64,000 nucleotides of DNA from Acidimicrobiia bacterium (GTDB lineage: Bacteria; Actinomycetota; Acidimicrobiia; Spongiisociales; UBA5794), in NCBI GenBank assembly GCA_026985095.1, contig JALSQW010000008.1, positions 124,001 through 188,000 on the forward strand, given 5' to 3'. The position numbers and the translations under genes are program-made. A model generated the notes under the pieces. The model searched no databases, was not told the DNA's origin, and saw nothing but the letters and a program-made list of their open reading frames with translations. Shown here piece by piece: positions 10,633 to 17,025 of this stretch (within the stretch, counting starts at the first letter, position 1; the number at the start of each line of letters is the position of its first letter).

Positions 10633-11523
10633 TCAACGCGCCGCCTCGTAGGGAGCCTCGGCCTCGGCGACGCCGAAGCGTTGCACCAACCCCACGGCAC
10701 CGGCGACGGCCAGGACACCGGCGATCTGGCCGACCGCGAGCCGCTGAGAGACGATCACCCATCCGGCGATCGAAGCGATGACCGGCTCGGAGGTGGCCAC
10801 GATCCCCACGACCCCCGCCGAGATCCGGCGCAGTGCCGACATCTCGGCCAGGAACGGCACGACGGTCCCGGCGACGCCGATCCACAGGACCTGTCTCCAG
10901 ACGTCCTGGATCGCCCCCGGCGATGCCGTCCACGGGGGAAGCGCGACGAGCCAGGTGACGGAGGCGAAGGTGAAGCCCCACGCCAGCACCGTCACCGGCG
11001 GGAGGTCACGACCGAGCCGTTCCCCCAGGAGCAGGTACACAGCGAAGAACACCGCCGCCGATCCGCCGGCGGCGACGCCGAGCCAGTCGACCCCCTGCAA
11101 GCGCCATGCCTCGGTGACCAGTGCGACCCCGGCCACCGCGAGTCCGCCTGCCACCCAGGCGACGCGGGAGATCGAGGTCCCCTGGACGGCCGCCATCCAG
11201 ACGAGCACGAGGAGCGGCCCGAGGAACTGGATGGTCACGCCCGGTCCCACCCCGAGACGATCGATCGACCAGTAGTAGGTGGCGGTGACGACGGCCAGGA
11301 CGATCCCGAGCGCCGCCAGCCGCCGAAGCTGCCCCGAGGGATGAAGCACCTTGGTCGCCGCCGCGATCGGGACCAGCACCACCGCAGCGACGATCGCCCG
11401 CGACTGCGCGACCCGGGCCGGGGACAGGACGTCGAACGCGGAAGCGGCCACCGCCCCGGACACTCCCCACAGCGCCGCCGCGGTGAACGCCAGCGCAACC
11501 CCGCGAGGATCCTGCCGTTCCAC
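10633..11523 (-). CDS. EamA/DMT-family transporter
   Basis: This 296-residue protein has ten hydrophobic segments arranged as two EamA repeats (about 8-140 and 150-285), the RhtA/YdcZ-like drug/metabolite exporter layout. The start is GTG (11521-11523), supported by a TACGCT element 6 nt upstream. The substrate is not predictable; relatives export amino acids or metabolites. It converges with fdhD (9 nt between stops) and diverges from mug. Confidence 0.88.
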   Translation of the reverse strand: MERQDPRGVALAFTAAALWGVSGAVAASAFDVLSPARVAQSRAIVAAVVLVPIAAATKVLHPSGQLRRLAALGIVLAVVTATYYWSIDRLGVGPGVTIQFLGPLLVLVWMAAVQGTSISRVAWVAGGLAVAGVALVTEAWRLQGVDWLGVAAGGSAAVFFAVYLLLGERLGRDLPPVTVLAWGFTFASVTWLVALPPWTASPGAIQDVWRQVLWIGVAGTVVPFLAEMSALRRISAGVVGIVATSEPVIASIAGWVIVSQRLAVGQIAGVLAVAGAVGLVQRFGVAEAEAPYEAAR

Positions 11524-11535: not shown

Positions 11536-11588
11536 GGCACCCCGGCATCGATGCTGCCGCCGCGGCTGCGGTGCGCGAGACTGGGCCG

Positions 11589-12182
11589 ATGGGGTTCACC
11601 AGGCAACAGCTCCAAGCCGCGCGGGGCCGGTCGGTCCCGGACCTCCTCGGTGATGGCGTGCGGTTACTGTTCGTCGGCATCAACCCCGGACTGTGGACGG
11701 CGGCAGCGCAGGCCCACTTCGCGCACCCGGCGAACCGCTTCTGGAAGGCGCTGTACGAGGCCGGTCTCGTCGATCACCCGATCGATGCATCGGCCGGGCT
11801 GTCACCGCGGGACGCCCAGCTCCTGATCGAACGGGGGATCGGGATCACCAACCTGGTCGACCGGGCGACGGCGCGGGCAGACGAACTCGACGACGACGAG
11901 CTGCGGACCGGAGCCCTGGCGCTGGTCGAGAAGGTACGGCGCCTCGGTCCGCGGGTGGTGGTCATCCTCGGGCTGGGTGCCTATCGCAAAGGGTTCGCCA
12001 GACCGAAGGCCAAGCGTGGCAGGCAGCCCGAGCGCCTCGGCGGCGCGGTGCTGTACGTCCTCGGCAATCCCAGCGGTCTCAATGCCCACGAGACGGTCGA
12101 GTCCCTCGCCGAAGCCTTCGCCGATGCGGCCGACGCCGCCGGCGTCCCACGAGCCCCTCATCGCGGCGTCGACGCCGGGTAG
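11589..12182 (+). CDS. mug: G/U mismatch-specific DNA glycosylase (Mug/TDG family)
   Basis: This 197-residue enzyme has the family-1 motif G-I-N-P-G-L (30-35), H-F-A-H-P-A-N-R-F-W and the second active-site motif N-P-S-G-L-N-A (160-166). All are diagnostic of Mug/TDG uracil-DNA glycosylases. It removes uracil or ethenocytosine opposite G as the first step of base excision repair. ATG 11589 fits the family start and has GAGACT 6 nt upstream. The 3' end overlaps the convergent aquaporin gene by 25 nt. Confidence 0.93.
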   Translation: MGFTRQQLQAARGRSVPDLLGDGVRLLFVGINPGLWTAAAQAHFAHPANRFWKALYEAGLVDHPIDASAGLSPRDAQLLIERGIGITNLVDRATARADELDDDELRTGALALVEKVRRLGPRVVVILGLGAYRKGFARPKAKRGRQPERLGGAVLYVLGNPSGLNAHETVESLAEAFADAADAAGVPRAPHRGVDAG

Positions 12183-12827: not shown

Positions 12828-12847
12828 ATCTCAATCATGGTTGAGGT
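12828..12847. promoter_or_regulatory. Operator-like palindrome over the divergent ars start codons
   Basis: A 20-bp imperfect palindrome has 8 of 10 matching pairs, with CTCAA-N6-TTGAG as its core (12830-12845) and a central CATG. The ATG of arsR-arsC lies in its centre. The TCAA/TTGA half-sites look like ArsR/SmtB operators. Bound repressor would block both divergent promoters. Confidence 0.6.
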
Positions 12848-13520
12848 ACCTTACCGGCTCGAGGAGCGCGCCCGGCGTCTGGCCGCCCTCGGCCAACCGC
12901 ACCGCCTCGCCCTCGTCGAGGCGCTCGCGTCGACGGACCTGGCGCCAACCGAAGCAGCTCGACTCCTCGACATCGACAGCAACCTCCTCGCCCATCATGT
13001 GGCGACCCTCGAAGCCGCGAACATCGTCCGACGCTCCCCGTCCGCCGGAGACGGTCGACGCCGCTACCTGCGCCTCGTCCCCGGCGCCGTCGACGGGCTC
13101 GTGCGACCCACCATGCCGACGGCGTCGTCGGTGCTCTTCGTGTGCACGGGCAACAGCGCCCGGTCCCAGTTCGCGCAAGCCCTGTGGGAACGCACCGTCG
13201 GCGGAGACGCCCAGAGCGCGGGCCTGCAACCGGCACCGCGCGTCCACCCGACCGCCGTCGAGGTGGCCGCAGCCCATGGCATCGACCTGCGCGACCGCGC
13301 GCCGAAGGGCTACCGAGACGTCACCGGCCACCCCGACCTGGTCGTGTCGGTGTGCGATCGGGCCAAGGAAGCATCGACCCCCTTCCGTGCCCGCACGCTG
13401 CACTGGTCGATCCCCGACCCCGTGGAAGGTGGCCGACGACGGGACTTCGAGGCGGCGTTCGAGGAGATCGAGCGCCGGATCCGACAGCTCGCGACCCACG
13501 ACACGAGGGAGACACGATGA
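12837..13520 (+). CDS. ArsR-type repressor fused to an ArsC/LMW-phosphatase domain
   Basis: This 227-residue protein has an N-terminal winged helix-turn-helix (about 7-85). A low-molecular-weight phosphatase/arsenate reductase fold follows (about 97-222), with P-loop C103-T-G-N-S-A-R109-S and a late D-P motif (I-P-D-P). The ArsR half contains no cysteine at all, so the classic metal-binding site is missing. Metalloid sensing, if any, must use the C-terminal domain or non-thiol residues. Its stop overlaps the arsC start (ATGA). It probably represses itself and the divergent aquaporin gene. Confidence 0.9.
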   Translation: MVEVPYRLEERARRLAALGQPHRLALVEALASTDLAPTEAARLLDIDSNLLAHHVATLEAANIVRRSPSAGDGRRRYLRLVPGAVDGLVRPTMPTASSVLFVCTGNSARSQFAQALWERTVGGDAQSAGLQPAPRVHPTAVEVAAAHGIDLRDRAPKGYRDVTGHPDLVVSVCDRAKEASTPFRARTLHWSIPDPVEGGRRRDFEAAFEEIERRIRQLATHDTRETR

Positions 13521-13948
13521 CCCGCGAGCCCCCACCGGAGGTCCTGTTCGTCTGCGTCCACAACGCGGGACGATCCCAGATGGCCGCCGCCTTGCTCCAC
13601 CACCATGCCGGCGGCGACATCGTGGTTCGCTCGGCCGGATCGACGCCCGCCGACGAGATCAACCCGGCCGCCGTCGAGGCCCTCGCCGAGCTCGGGATCG
13701 ACATCTCCGAGGAGTTCCCCAAGCCCCTCACCGACGAGACCGTGCGCGGCGCCGACGTCGTCATCACGATGGGGTGCGGCGACACCTGCCCGATCTTCCC
13801 TTCCAAGCGCTACCTGGATTGGGACATCCCCGACCCCGCCGGTCTTCCCCTCGAAGAGGTGCGGCCCATCAGGGACGAGATCGACCGAAGGGTCCGCGAG
13901 CTCGCCGACGAGCTCCTCGCCGGCACCCGCCGCAGCGACACTCGGTAG
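13517..13948 (+). CDS. arsC: Arsenate reductase ArsC (LMWP fold, thiol-transferase type)
   Basis: This 143-residue enzyme has the active-site loop C13-V-H-N-A-G-R19-S-Q-M. A M-G-C87-G-D-T-C91-P segment and a D-W-x-I-P-D-P motif follow. The pattern matches actinobacterial ArsC enzymes that use mycothiol/mycoredoxin or thioredoxin to reduce arsenate to arsenite. The product would leave through the adjacent aquaglyceroporin. It overlaps the ArsR-ArsC fusion by 4 nt. Confidence 0.93.
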   Translation: MTREPPPEVLFVCVHNAGRSQMAAALLHHHAGGDIVVRSAGSTPADEINPAAVEALAELGIDISEEFPKPLTDETVRGADVVITMGCGDTCPIFPSKRYLDWDIPDPAGLPLEEVRPIRDEIDRRVRELADELLAGTRRSDTR

Positions 13949-13997
13949 GGTCCGACACCCAAGTGCAACCCGAACCAACCGACCGGGGTTCTCTCCC

Positions 13998-14576
13998 ATG
14001 ATGCAGCCCGACCCGCACCCCGAGACCCTCCCCTCCCGGCTCGCCGAGGACGTCGATGCCGCGTTCGCCGATCTGGTTCGCGTCTACCAGAACGGGATCT
14101 ACGCCGGTGCCTTCCAGCTCACCCGCGACCGTCACGAGGCCGAGGACGTCGCGCAGGAGACGTTCCTCCGCGCCTACCGAGCCTTGCGCGGCTTCCCGCC
14201 CAGGCGCCGAGCGGAACTCCGCCTCGGGGGCTGGCTGTGGACCATCGCCCTCAACGTCTGCCGCAACCGGCACCGATCCCGCTCGAGACGACCCGGCGAG
14301 ACCGCGCTCACCGGTCGGATCGACCCACCCGACCGCGTCGGAGACGAGCCCGAGACGGTGATCGACGGATCCGCCGACCTCGAGGTCTGGCGCCGCCGCC
14401 TCGCGACGCTCCCCGAACCGCAACGCACCGCCGTCGTGCTCCGGCACGTCGTCGGCCTCCGCTACGACGAGATCGCGCACGCCACCGACCGTCCCATAGG
14501 AACCGTCAAAGCCGACGTCCATCGCGGCATCCGCCGCCTCGAGAGGATCCTGGCCACCGAGGAGGTGACCCTGTGA
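13998..14576 (+). CDS. ECF-family sigma factor linked to an alkylation-repair protein
   Basis: This 192-residue protein has region 2 with D-V-A-Q-E-T-F and a tryptophan-rich W-L-W-T-I-A helix. A long charged linker precedes region 4 (about 132-185: L-P-E-P-Q-R-T-A-V-V-L-R-H ... G-T-V-K-A-D-V-H-R-G). A TAGGGT hexamer at 13946-13951 may be its -10, with a roughly 40-nt leader. Its stop overlaps the start of a methyltransferase/Ada protein (GTGA), the slot where an anti-sigma gene normally sits. This suggests it runs an alkylation-damage response, which is inference from context. Confidence 0.9.
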   Translation: MMQPDPHPETLPSRLAEDVDAAFADLVRVYQNGIYAGAFQLTRDRHEAEDVAQETFLRAYRALRGFPPRRRAELRLGGWLWTIALNVCRNRHRSRSRRPGETALTGRIDPPDRVGDEPETVIDGSADLEVWRRRLATLPEPQRTAVVLRHVVGLRYDEIAHATDRPIGTVKADVHRGIRRLERILATEEVTL

Positions 14577-15331
14577 CCGACATCGAACGCCGCCTCCGCG
14601 CCCTCCGCACCTCGGCGCCCTCAGGGCTCCTCCCGTCGATCCTGATGGCCCTGTCGTTGGGCGACGCCTACACCATCGTCGACGGACCCGCCGGAGCGAT
14701 GTACGTCGCCTGGAACGACCGCGGCGTGACGGCCTGCGTGCCCATGACCGCCGTCGAGGGCGCGTTCGAGGATGCCCATCCCCGCCAAGCGCACTACGTC
14801 GAGCACCCACCAGACCGCATCGGGCGCCCCCTCGACCGTGCCCTCCGAACCGGCCGCCTCGGGGACCTCCCGGTCGATCTCGACGCCCTGGGCGACTTCC
14901 AGCGCCTCGTCCTCCGCAAGTGCGCGGAGATCCCGCCCGGCGAGATCCGACCGTACGGATGGATCGCCAAGGAGATCGGCCGGCCCGGGGCGGTCCGCGC
15001 GGTCGGGACCGCGCTCGCACGCAACCCGATCCCCATCCTGATCCCGTGCCATCGGGTCGTCCGCACCGACGGCAAGATCGGACGCTACGCGTACGGCGCC
15101 GACATGAAGCGGGAGCTCCTCCGGCGCGAGGGCGTCGACCCCGACGCCCTCGAGGATCTCGCCCGCCGCCACGTGCGGTACGTCGGCTCGGACACCACGA
15201 TGATCTACTGCTACCCCACCTGCCGGCACGCAGAACGCATCGCTGCGACCCATCGGGTCACGTTCCGTTCCCACCTCGACGCCCAAGCAGCCGGCTTCCG
15301 AGCGTGCCAGGTCTGCCGACCGGCCGCGTGA
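14573..15331 (+). CDS. O6-alkylguanine-DNA alkyltransferase with C-terminal Ada zinc domain
   Basis: This 252-residue protein has three parts. An N-terminal stretch (M-T-D-I-E-R-R-L-R-A-L-R) is reminiscent of anti-sigma proteins. The methyltransferase domain has R-A-V-G-T-A-L-A-R-N-P and active-site P-C159-H-R-V-V. A C-terminal Ada-type metal-binding domain has C213-x3-C217 and C245-x2-C248. In E. coli Ada this zinc domain is N-terminal, takes the methyl group from DNA phosphotriesters and turns Ada into an activator. Here the order is reversed and no AraC-type DNA-binding domain is present. The 4-nt overlap with an ECF sigma gene suggests that it controls the sigma factor. Confidence 0.9.
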   Translation: MTDIERRLRALRTSAPSGLLPSILMALSLGDAYTIVDGPAGAMYVAWNDRGVTACVPMTAVEGAFEDAHPRQAHYVEHPPDRIGRPLDRALRTGRLGDLPVDLDALGDFQRLVLRKCAEIPPGEIRPYGWIAKEIGRPGAVRAVGTALARNPIPILIPCHRVVRTDGKIGRYAYGADMKRELLRREGVDPDALEDLARRHVRYVGSDTTMIYCYPTCRHAERIAATHRVTFRSHLDAQAAGFRACQVCRPAA

Positions 15332-15351: not shown

Positions 15352-17025
15352 ATGCCTGATCTCGTCGAGACCATCCGCTCATCGATCATCGGGAACGACT
15401 TCGCCGTGCCGGGCCCCTTCGGACCTCGGCGGGTCACGTACGCCGACTACACCGCATCGGGTCGGTCGCTGTCGTTCATCGAGGACTACATCCGCGACGT
15501 CGTCCTGCCGCTGTACGCCAACACCCACACCGAGTCGTCCGGGACGGGCCTCCAGACGACCCGGTTCCGCGAGGAGGCCCGCGACATCGTTCGACGCTGC
15601 ACCAACGCCGGGGACGACTACGTCGTGCTCTTCGCCGGATCGGGGACCACCGGGGCGATCGACCGGTTGCTGGGCGTGCTCGGCATCCGGATCCCGTGCA
15701 CCCTCGAGGACCGGTACCACCTCTCCGAACGGATCCCCCCCGAGGAGCGCCCCGTCGCGTTCATCGGCCCCTACGAGCACCATTCCAACGAGCTGCCGTG
15801 GCGTGAATCGATCGCCGACGTCATCACCATCGCCGAGGACGCCGATGGCCACATCGACCTCGACCACCTCGAAGCCGAGTTGATCGCCCACGCCGACCGA
15901 CCGCTCAAGATCGGGAGCTTCTCGGCGGCGTCCAACGTCACCGGCATCATCTCGGACACCCGCGCCATCGCCGAGCTCCTCCACCGCCACGGAGCGCTCT
16001 CGTTCTGGGACTTCGCCGCCGCAGCCCCGTACGTCGGCATCGACATGGCGCCGGCCGATGCACCCCACGCCTACAAGGACGCCATCTTCCTCTCCCCGCA
16101 CAAGCTCATCGGGGGACCCGGCACCCCCGGGGTGCTCATCGCACGTCGCGAGCTGTTCACCAACCGGGTCCCTGCGGTTCCCGGTGGCGGCACCGTCGCC
16201 TACGTCAACCCGTCCGACCATCGCTACCTCGACGACATCGAGCACCGCGAGGAGGGCGGCACGCCTGCGATCGTCGAGTCCATCAGGGCCGGCCTCGTGT
16301 TCCAGTTGAAGGAAGCCGTCGGCTCCGAGCGGATCGAACGACTCGAGAAGGGGTTCGTCGAACGCGCCATCGCACGCTGGAACGCCCACCCACGCATCGA
16401 GGTGCTCGGGAACCCCGACGCGGCTCGCCTCTCGATCGTGTCGTTCGTCGTCCGCCACGGCGACCAATACCTCCATCACAACTTCGTCGTGGCCCTCCTC
16501 AACGACCTGTTCGGGATCCAGTCCCGCGGCGGATGCTCCTGCGCCGGCCCCTACGGCCATCGGCTGTTGGGGATCGACCTCGAGACGTCCCACGAGTTCG
16601 AGCGGGAGATCGCCCGGGGCTGCGAGCTGATCAAGCCCGGATGGGTGCGGGTCAACTTCAACTACTTCATCTCCGAAGCCGTGTTCTCCTACATCATCGA
16701 TGCCGTCGAGCTCATCGCCGAGGAGGGCTGGAAGCTGCTGCCCTGGTACCGCTACGAGCCCGCCACCGCCCTCTGGGAGCACCTGGGGGGGAGAGGAGAG
16801 GCTCCCCTCAGCCTCCATGAGATCGACTACGCCACCGGTGCGATGCGGTACCAGCACCGTCCCAGGCGGGATCCCGACCACGTCCTGACCGACTACCTCG
16901 AGCAGGCCCGCCGGATCCTCGCCGATCCCGGGGTCCCCGAGCAGGTCGCGACGATGGAGCGCTCGGCCGACTTCGAGCACCTCCGCTGGTTCCCGCTTCC
17001 CCACGAGATCGCGGCCGATGCCTGA
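15352..17025 (+). CDS. Class V aminotransferase (cysteine desulfurase-like), large form
   Basis: This 557-residue PLP enzyme has the SGTTGA phosphate-binding loop (97-102), D220 and the Schiff-base lysine in S-P-H-K251-L-I-G-G. It resembles SufS/NifS-like and isopenicillin-epimerase-like fold-type I enzymes but is about 150 residues longer. A G-G-C-S-C-A-G-P-Y-G-H motif is in the place where desulfurases have their mobile cysteine loop. The true reaction (desulfurase, lyase or transaminase) is uncertain. Its stop overlaps the hydrolase start by 8 nt, so they are co-translated. Confidence 0.85.
   Translation: MPDLVETIRSSIIGNDFAVPGPFGPRRVTYADYTASGRSLSFIEDYIRDVVLPLYANTHTESSGTGLQTTRFREEARDIVRRCTNAGDDYVVLFAGSGTTGAIDRLLGVLGIRIPCTLEDRYHLSERIPPEERPVAFIGPYEHHSNELPWRESIADVITIAEDADGHIDLDHLEAELIAHADRPLKIGSFSAASNVTGIISDTRAIAELLHRHGALSFWDFAAAAPYVGIDMAPADAPHAYKDAIFLSPHKLIGGPGTPGVLIARRELFTNRVPAVPGGGTVAYVNPSDHRYLDDIEHREEGGTPAIVESIRAGLVFQLKEAVGSERIERLEKGFVERAIARWNAHPRIEVLGNPDAARLSIVSFVVRHGDQYLHHNFVVALLNDLFGIQSRGGCSCAGPYGHRLLGIDLETSHEFEREIARGCELIKPGWVRVNFNYFISEAVFSYIIDAVELIAEEGWKLLPWYRYEPATALWEHLGGRGEAPLSLHEIDYATGAMRYQHRPRRDPDHVLTDYLEQARRILADPGVPEQVATMERSADFEHLRWFPLPHEIAADA

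Follow-up and report, generated by a model that had tools for sequence, protein, structure and literature searches.

Ada and Cada2 are two known ways of turning cysteine methylation into transcription. In the Ada response of E. coli, a cysteine of the zinc domain is the switch, whereas in the Cada2 response of Caulobacter a transcription regulator is switched by methylation of its PCHR cysteine; both known methylation-switched regulators work by gain of function (PMC10957082). Among ECF sigma factors, the review PMC8999054 lists the group ECF122 under "unknown mechanism", with an example from Cellulomonas, no anti-sigma gene, and a 6-O-methylguanine DNA methyltransferase as conserved neighbour. 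Finally, cytoplasmic anti-sigma factors of the RsrA/ZAS type are encoded directly behind their ECF factor and are switched by reversible thiol oxidation in a zinc-finger anti-sigma fold. Literature searches for ECF122 returned only that review, and searches on combinations of ECF, anti-sigma, alkylation, Ada and MGMT listed no experimental study of the pairing among the entries shown. With ECF122 on record, the neighbourhood of a sigma gene and an O6-methylguanine methyltransferase (MGMT) gene is not new in itself.

The locus studied here lies in a 64,000-nucleotide stretch (referred to as the window) of a 2.9 Mb genome of an Acidimicrobiia bacterium (GCA_026985095.1, contig JALSQW010000008.1, positions 124,001 to 188,000). 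An ECF sigma gene (ATG at 13998, stop at 14576) overlaps by the shared bases GTGA (14573-14576) the gene of an MGMT with a C-terminal Ada zinc domain (GTG at 14573, stop at 15331). The following features were assigned:
13964-13969, + strand: predicted -35 element TGCAAC of a putatively autoregulated promoter.
13986-13992, + strand: predicted -10 element GGGTTCT; the ATG follows 5 nt later, from which a leaderless mRNA is inferred as probable.
13998-14576, + strand: ECF sigma factor (192 aa) with regions 2 and 4.
14573-15331, + strand: MGMT with C-terminal Ada zinc domain (252 aa), proposed alkylation sensor and regulator of the sigma factor.
14573-14668, + strand: N-terminal extension of the MGMT, residues 1-32, LxxLxxxAPxxLxxxVL pattern, proposed sigma-docking segment.
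15047-15049, + strand: codon of C159, methyl-acceptor cysteine of the PCHR site.
15179-15322, + strand: C-terminal Ada-type zinc domain, residues 203-250, with C213 (15209-15211) at the place of the E. coli Ada acceptor cysteine.

Pfam analysis of the first protein identified only sigma regions 2 and 4 (Sigma70_r2, 1.6e-14; Sigma70_r4_2, 6.7e-13), an assignment further based on an alignment of 67 sequences and a model (mf691d58efdf6). The second protein showed DNA_binding_1 (MGMT, PF01035; 6.9e-32) at residues 108-188 and Ada_Zn_binding (2.4e-9) at residues 203-250, but no AraC or other HTH family. Its cysteines are at positions 55, 117, 159, 213, 217, 245, and 248; C159 is located in IPCHR, and C213-x3-C217-x27-C245-x2-C248 has the Ada spacing, with residues 207-250 aligning to the E. 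coli N-Ada structures 1adn/1u8b. An AlphaFold2 model from the 68-sequence alignment (mean pLDDT 95, pTM 0.87) predicted two short helices, 3-11 and 19-26, before the MGMT fold. Foldseek retrieved E. coli Ada-C first (E 3.5e-12) and, weakly, N-Ada (1u8b, E 0.022, rmsd 1.2 over 48 columns). Thus, the original prediction, made from the sequence alone, was correct in every detail of its observation that could be tested: the sigma gene, the GTGA overlap, the PCHR site, the four zinc cysteines, the C-terminal position of the zinc domain, and the lack of an AraC domain. The one item not confirmed as stated is its "anti-sigma helix" at the N-terminus, because no Pfam anti-sigma domain matched any of 68 members at E 0.1; only a sub-threshold DUF7158 match was found in one member.

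To test whether this gene order recurs in other genomes, as the original prediction had proposed, the MGMT protein was searched in 99 genomes of relatives, of which 96 had some match. The best named relatives were MAGs labelled Actinomycetota or Acidimicrobiia, up to 79% identical over full length. In the loci L018-L087 (L numbers denote loci, G numbers genomes), the sigma gene was directly upstream in 68 of 70, the other two being cut by contig ends. In 61 of 68 aligned loci, the overlap was exactly 4 nt, which is far beyond chance, and an artefact was rejected because order, overlap, and promoter are conserved. In a 396-genome sample of the phylum, 27 of the top 30 loci had the sigma gene upstream, 21 of them (L094-L114) from families not seen before. 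Of 20 weaker matches chosen mostly because they covered the N-terminus (L118-L137), 17 were sigma-linked, and of 20 chosen because they did not (L239-L258), 6 were linked; these rates are thus not unbiased. The pair is therefore old and widespread in Actinomycetota. A contig labelled Proteobacteria (L013) also carries the sigma-MGMT-Ada pair (46% identity), owing to transfer or mis-binning. The 68-row alignment left out L032, L085, L086, and L087 (cut by contig ends), L001-L011 (judged to cover the same genes as later loci), L014 and L015 (cut), and L016 and L017 (no sigma hit).

C159, H160, and R161 were invariant in 68 of 68 aligned proteins. One genus (L065, L067, L068, L071) has ACHR instead of PCHR and a shortened N-terminal extension, and is still sigma-linked. 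In contrast, the whole zinc domain was missing in 13 of the 68; in the 55 proteins that have it, the cysteines at 213, 217, and 245 were kept in 55 and that at 248 in 54, the missing one being cut by a contig end. Genomes with the short form had no PF02805 hit anywhere, except G047, which also carries a long form, and most of the more distant sigma-linked MGMTs looked at lack the domain too. Since sigma gene, extension, and promoter stay the same in the short forms, the zinc domain looks like an addition rather than the core.

Upstream of the sigma gene, 64 of 66 loci carry TGCAAC-N16-NNGTT, with GKGTT as the common form, mostly followed by CT; L070 has N15, and in L030 the start was misassigned. 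In the window, the motif lies at 13964-13992 in the 49-nt gap behind an arsenate-reductase-like gene (13517-13945, +), which is preceded by a gene for an ArsR-like HTH fused to a low-molecular-weight phosphatase/arsenate-reductase domain (12837-13517, +), the second gene also being LMWPc-like. A second family (f30) has its own motif, TGAAAC-N16-KTGTTNTA, upstream of its sigma-MGMT operon in 13 of 18 genomes (positions compared by hand), and a fourteenth, G312, has a CGAAAC variant; a stricter motif found too little and was widened to this form. In G421, a genome of f30, a small open frame of 148 aa that looks SnoaL-like by eye lies between the promoter motif and the sigma gene (L263). In the third, most distant group, a possible promoter (CTCAC...CGTT) was seen by eye only. 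That -35 and -10 elements change together with the sigma subfamily supports autoregulation, although self-activation remains a prediction from the conserved promoter.

Candidate targets were sought with the same motif. In the genome of the window, TGCAAC-N16-GKGTT occurs exactly once, and the longer pattern with up to two mismatches gave 33 matches versus 52 in the reversed control; no second target is detectable there. An EamA exporter gene (10633-11523, -) and a uracil-DNA-glycosylase family gene (11571-12179, +) near the pair lack the motif with up to two mismatches; one hit with three mismatches lies inside the EamA gene, and the window has no more hits than chance. In the 99 relatives, a looser pattern (N15-17) gave 252 matches versus 118 in the control. 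We examined 75 places with spacing 16 outside the known loci, those with the best-looking -10 first and then further ones (at least three hits of G029 lie outside this set; L237 was left out as a copy of L222). Two were further sigma genes (L185, L187). Of the other 73, 11 lie before EamA exporters in ten genomes of four families (G003, G012, G050, G055, G062 twice, G070, G084, G088, G089, G098), 10 of them with the start codon 7-9 nt after the motif, close to the geometry of the sigma gene, versus 0 of 17 places with spacing 15 or 17. The EamA identity rests on phmmer for all 11 and on Pfam for two. With 12-22 EamA domain matches per genome in five genomes checked, mostly two per protein, 11 of 73 is far above background (binomial p 1e-13 at an assumed 0.5%), though the contrast with wrong spacings alone is not significant (Fisher p 0.12). 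One place precedes an MFS exporter in G088 (L175), and one an HhH-GPD (AlkA-like) glycosylase in G050 (L220:398-1303, +), predicted with a signal-peptidase S26-like N-terminus (start codon chosen by a simple rule). The other 60 places show no pertinent gene that we recognised and are probably chance.

In G421, a second motif copy precedes an unextended MGMT followed by a PF09859 DNA-repair oxygenase (L273). The oxygenase is absent from all 99 close relatives and cannot be a target there. As operon neighbours, EamA follows the MGMT-Ada in five f30 loci (L097, L099, L105, L106, L109), a second MGMT in L114, and in L121 the order is sigma, MGMT, PF09859 oxygenase, and then an Ada zinc fragment at the cut-off score. 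In the window, a class-V aminotransferase/cysteine-desulfurase-like gene (15352-17022, +) lies directly downstream, and a similar protein start follows the MGMT in several relatives (L019, L025, L063, L064, L075, L079, L081-L084). The functions of the candidate targets and of the EamA, MGMT, and oxygenase operon neighbours all fit defence against alkylating compounds, but the repair genes were seen only in relatives, each in few genomes.

Among the 99 relatives, six genomes with an Ada domain in another protein (G051, G058, G065, G071, G082, G087) lack the sigma-MGMT pair at the loci inspected, while G057 has both. Two of these proteins were checked and have Ada, AraC-type, and AlkA domains (L315 from G058, L318 from G057); the MGMT next to L315 has no extension. 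This is a pattern of substitution for Ada, but the six genomes belong to two families only, so that few events are involved.

Sigma-linked MGMTs carry 26-68 residues before the core (111 cases) versus a median of 18 in 19 unlinked ones (Mann-Whitney p 0.0017); for the latter, the most upstream ATG or GTG was taken as start, which overstates their extension. The extension has conserved L8 (59 of 68), L11 (58), P16 (67), V23 (43), L24 (48), and D31 (61). Extended MGMTs without a detected sigma gene exist in L326 and in L117, the latter in an alkylation-repair cluster with a second MGMT and a methyladenine glycosylase (PF03352). In the Acidimicrobiia-type set, pairwise distances of extension and sigma factor correlate beyond the MGMT C-domain (partial r 0.50), as do those of the MGMT N-domain (0.49), and less so those of the zinc domain (0.26). 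At the residue level, the top 50 couplings from 111 sigma-MGMT pairs, a signal dominated by clade structure, were not enriched in the extension (p 0.22 to 0.92 by null).

Taken together, the locus is most probably (at roughly 50%) a self-contained adaptive response to DNA alkylation run by an ECF sigma factor, in which the MGMT is both repair enzyme and regulator. In this view, the sigma factor transcribes its own operon from TGCAAC-N16-GKGTTCT and, in some relatives, exporters and further alkylation-repair genes. An ECF factor that drives its own operon needs a brake, and the core operon offers only the MGMT, which stands where an anti-sigma gene would. Unmethylated MGMT would bind the sigma factor through its N-terminal extension and keep it off; irreversible methyl transfer from O6-methylguanine to C159 would change the shape of the protein and release the sigma factor; the induced operon would make more MGMT, which repairs the DNA and, once unmethylated protein accumulates, captures the sigma factor again. 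In lineages with the zinc domain, methyl-phosphotriesters read by C213 may be a second input. Gene order, catalytic residues, the conserved promoter, and the candidate targets come directly from the analysis, whereas binding and release, induction, the direction of control, and the identity of the switch cysteine are inferred. A more far-reaching version, held only tentatively, is a new class of anti-sigma factor that is itself a suicide DNA-repair enzyme: each methylation of C159 would take one inhibitor molecule out of action, so that the cell counts O6-methylguanine lesions and converts the count into free sigma factor. Such a system would be widespread in Actinomycetota, would run an adaptive response with exporters, AlkA-like, and oxygenase genes, and in some branches would have picked up a second, zinc-based sensor for methyl-phosphotriesters.

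Of the alternatives, the one surviving best, though unlikely, is that the MGMT is only an effector co-transcribed with a sigma factor that is controlled by something unlinked (another anti-sigma factor, proteolysis, or transcription). In agreement, many ECF groups are controlled without a neighbouring anti-sigma gene (PMC8999054), and the MGMT has no known anti-sigma domain; the residue couplings do not decide the matter. Against it stand the conserved partnership across the phylum with translational overlap, the extension that goes with sigma linkage, and a predicted self-activating promoter with no other conserved operon product. Less likely still, methylated MGMT may be a co-activator rather than a removed brake, only the methylated form helping the sigma factor engage RNA polymerase or its promoter; gene order and extension fit this equally well, and Ada and Cada2 both act by gain of function, but a sigma gene followed by a cytoplasmic regulator gene with a 4-nt overlap is the usual arrangement of sigma and anti-sigma genes, and ECF factors are generally active alone. 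The mechanism in the original prediction, a one-step sensor in which methyl transfer to the zinc cysteine frees the sigma factor, is doubtful despite the conservation of the four cysteines and the example of E. coli Ada, and was rejected as the general switch because 13 of 68 sigma-linked proteins lack the domain yet keep sigma factor, extension, promoter, and PCHR; distance correlation with sigma is also weakest for this domain. The interpretation in that prediction was thus partly supported: the conserved pairing, the promoter and target evidence for an alkylation response, and the association of the N-terminal extension with sigma linkage favour it, but the invariant C159 is the better candidate for the switch.

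How actinomycetotes without Ada sense alkylation is, to our knowledge, an open question, which the promoter, the candidate targets, and a single candidate switch residue make directly testable. If the main reading is right, it would be an anti-sigma mechanism based on consumption of a repair enzyme, and a third way, after Ada and Cada2, of turning cysteine methylation into transcription. With ECF122, the locus shares the MGMT gene as conserved neighbour and the absence of an anti-sigma gene; the C-terminal zinc domain, promoter, targets, and N-terminal extension are not described for that group in the parts of PMC8999054 consulted. With RsrA/ZAS-type factors, it shares a cytoplasmic protein encoded right after its ECF factor and, as proposed here, switched by chemistry on a cysteine, but with irreversible methylation and an MGMT fold. 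With E. coli Ada and the Ada-AraC-AlkA proteins of relatives, it shares the PCHR site, the zinc domain, predicted self-activation, and AlkA-like and oxygenase repair genes among the candidate targets; it differs in the missing AraC domain, the C-terminal position of the zinc domain, transcription through a dedicated ECF sigma factor, and exporters among the candidate targets. With Cada2, it shares a dispensable zinc A-box domain, methylation of the PCHR cysteine as the (here proposed) switch, and the control of MGMT and oxygenase genes (here candidate targets), but Cada2 is itself a DNA-binding activator, whereas here the DNA-binding part is a separate sigma factor.
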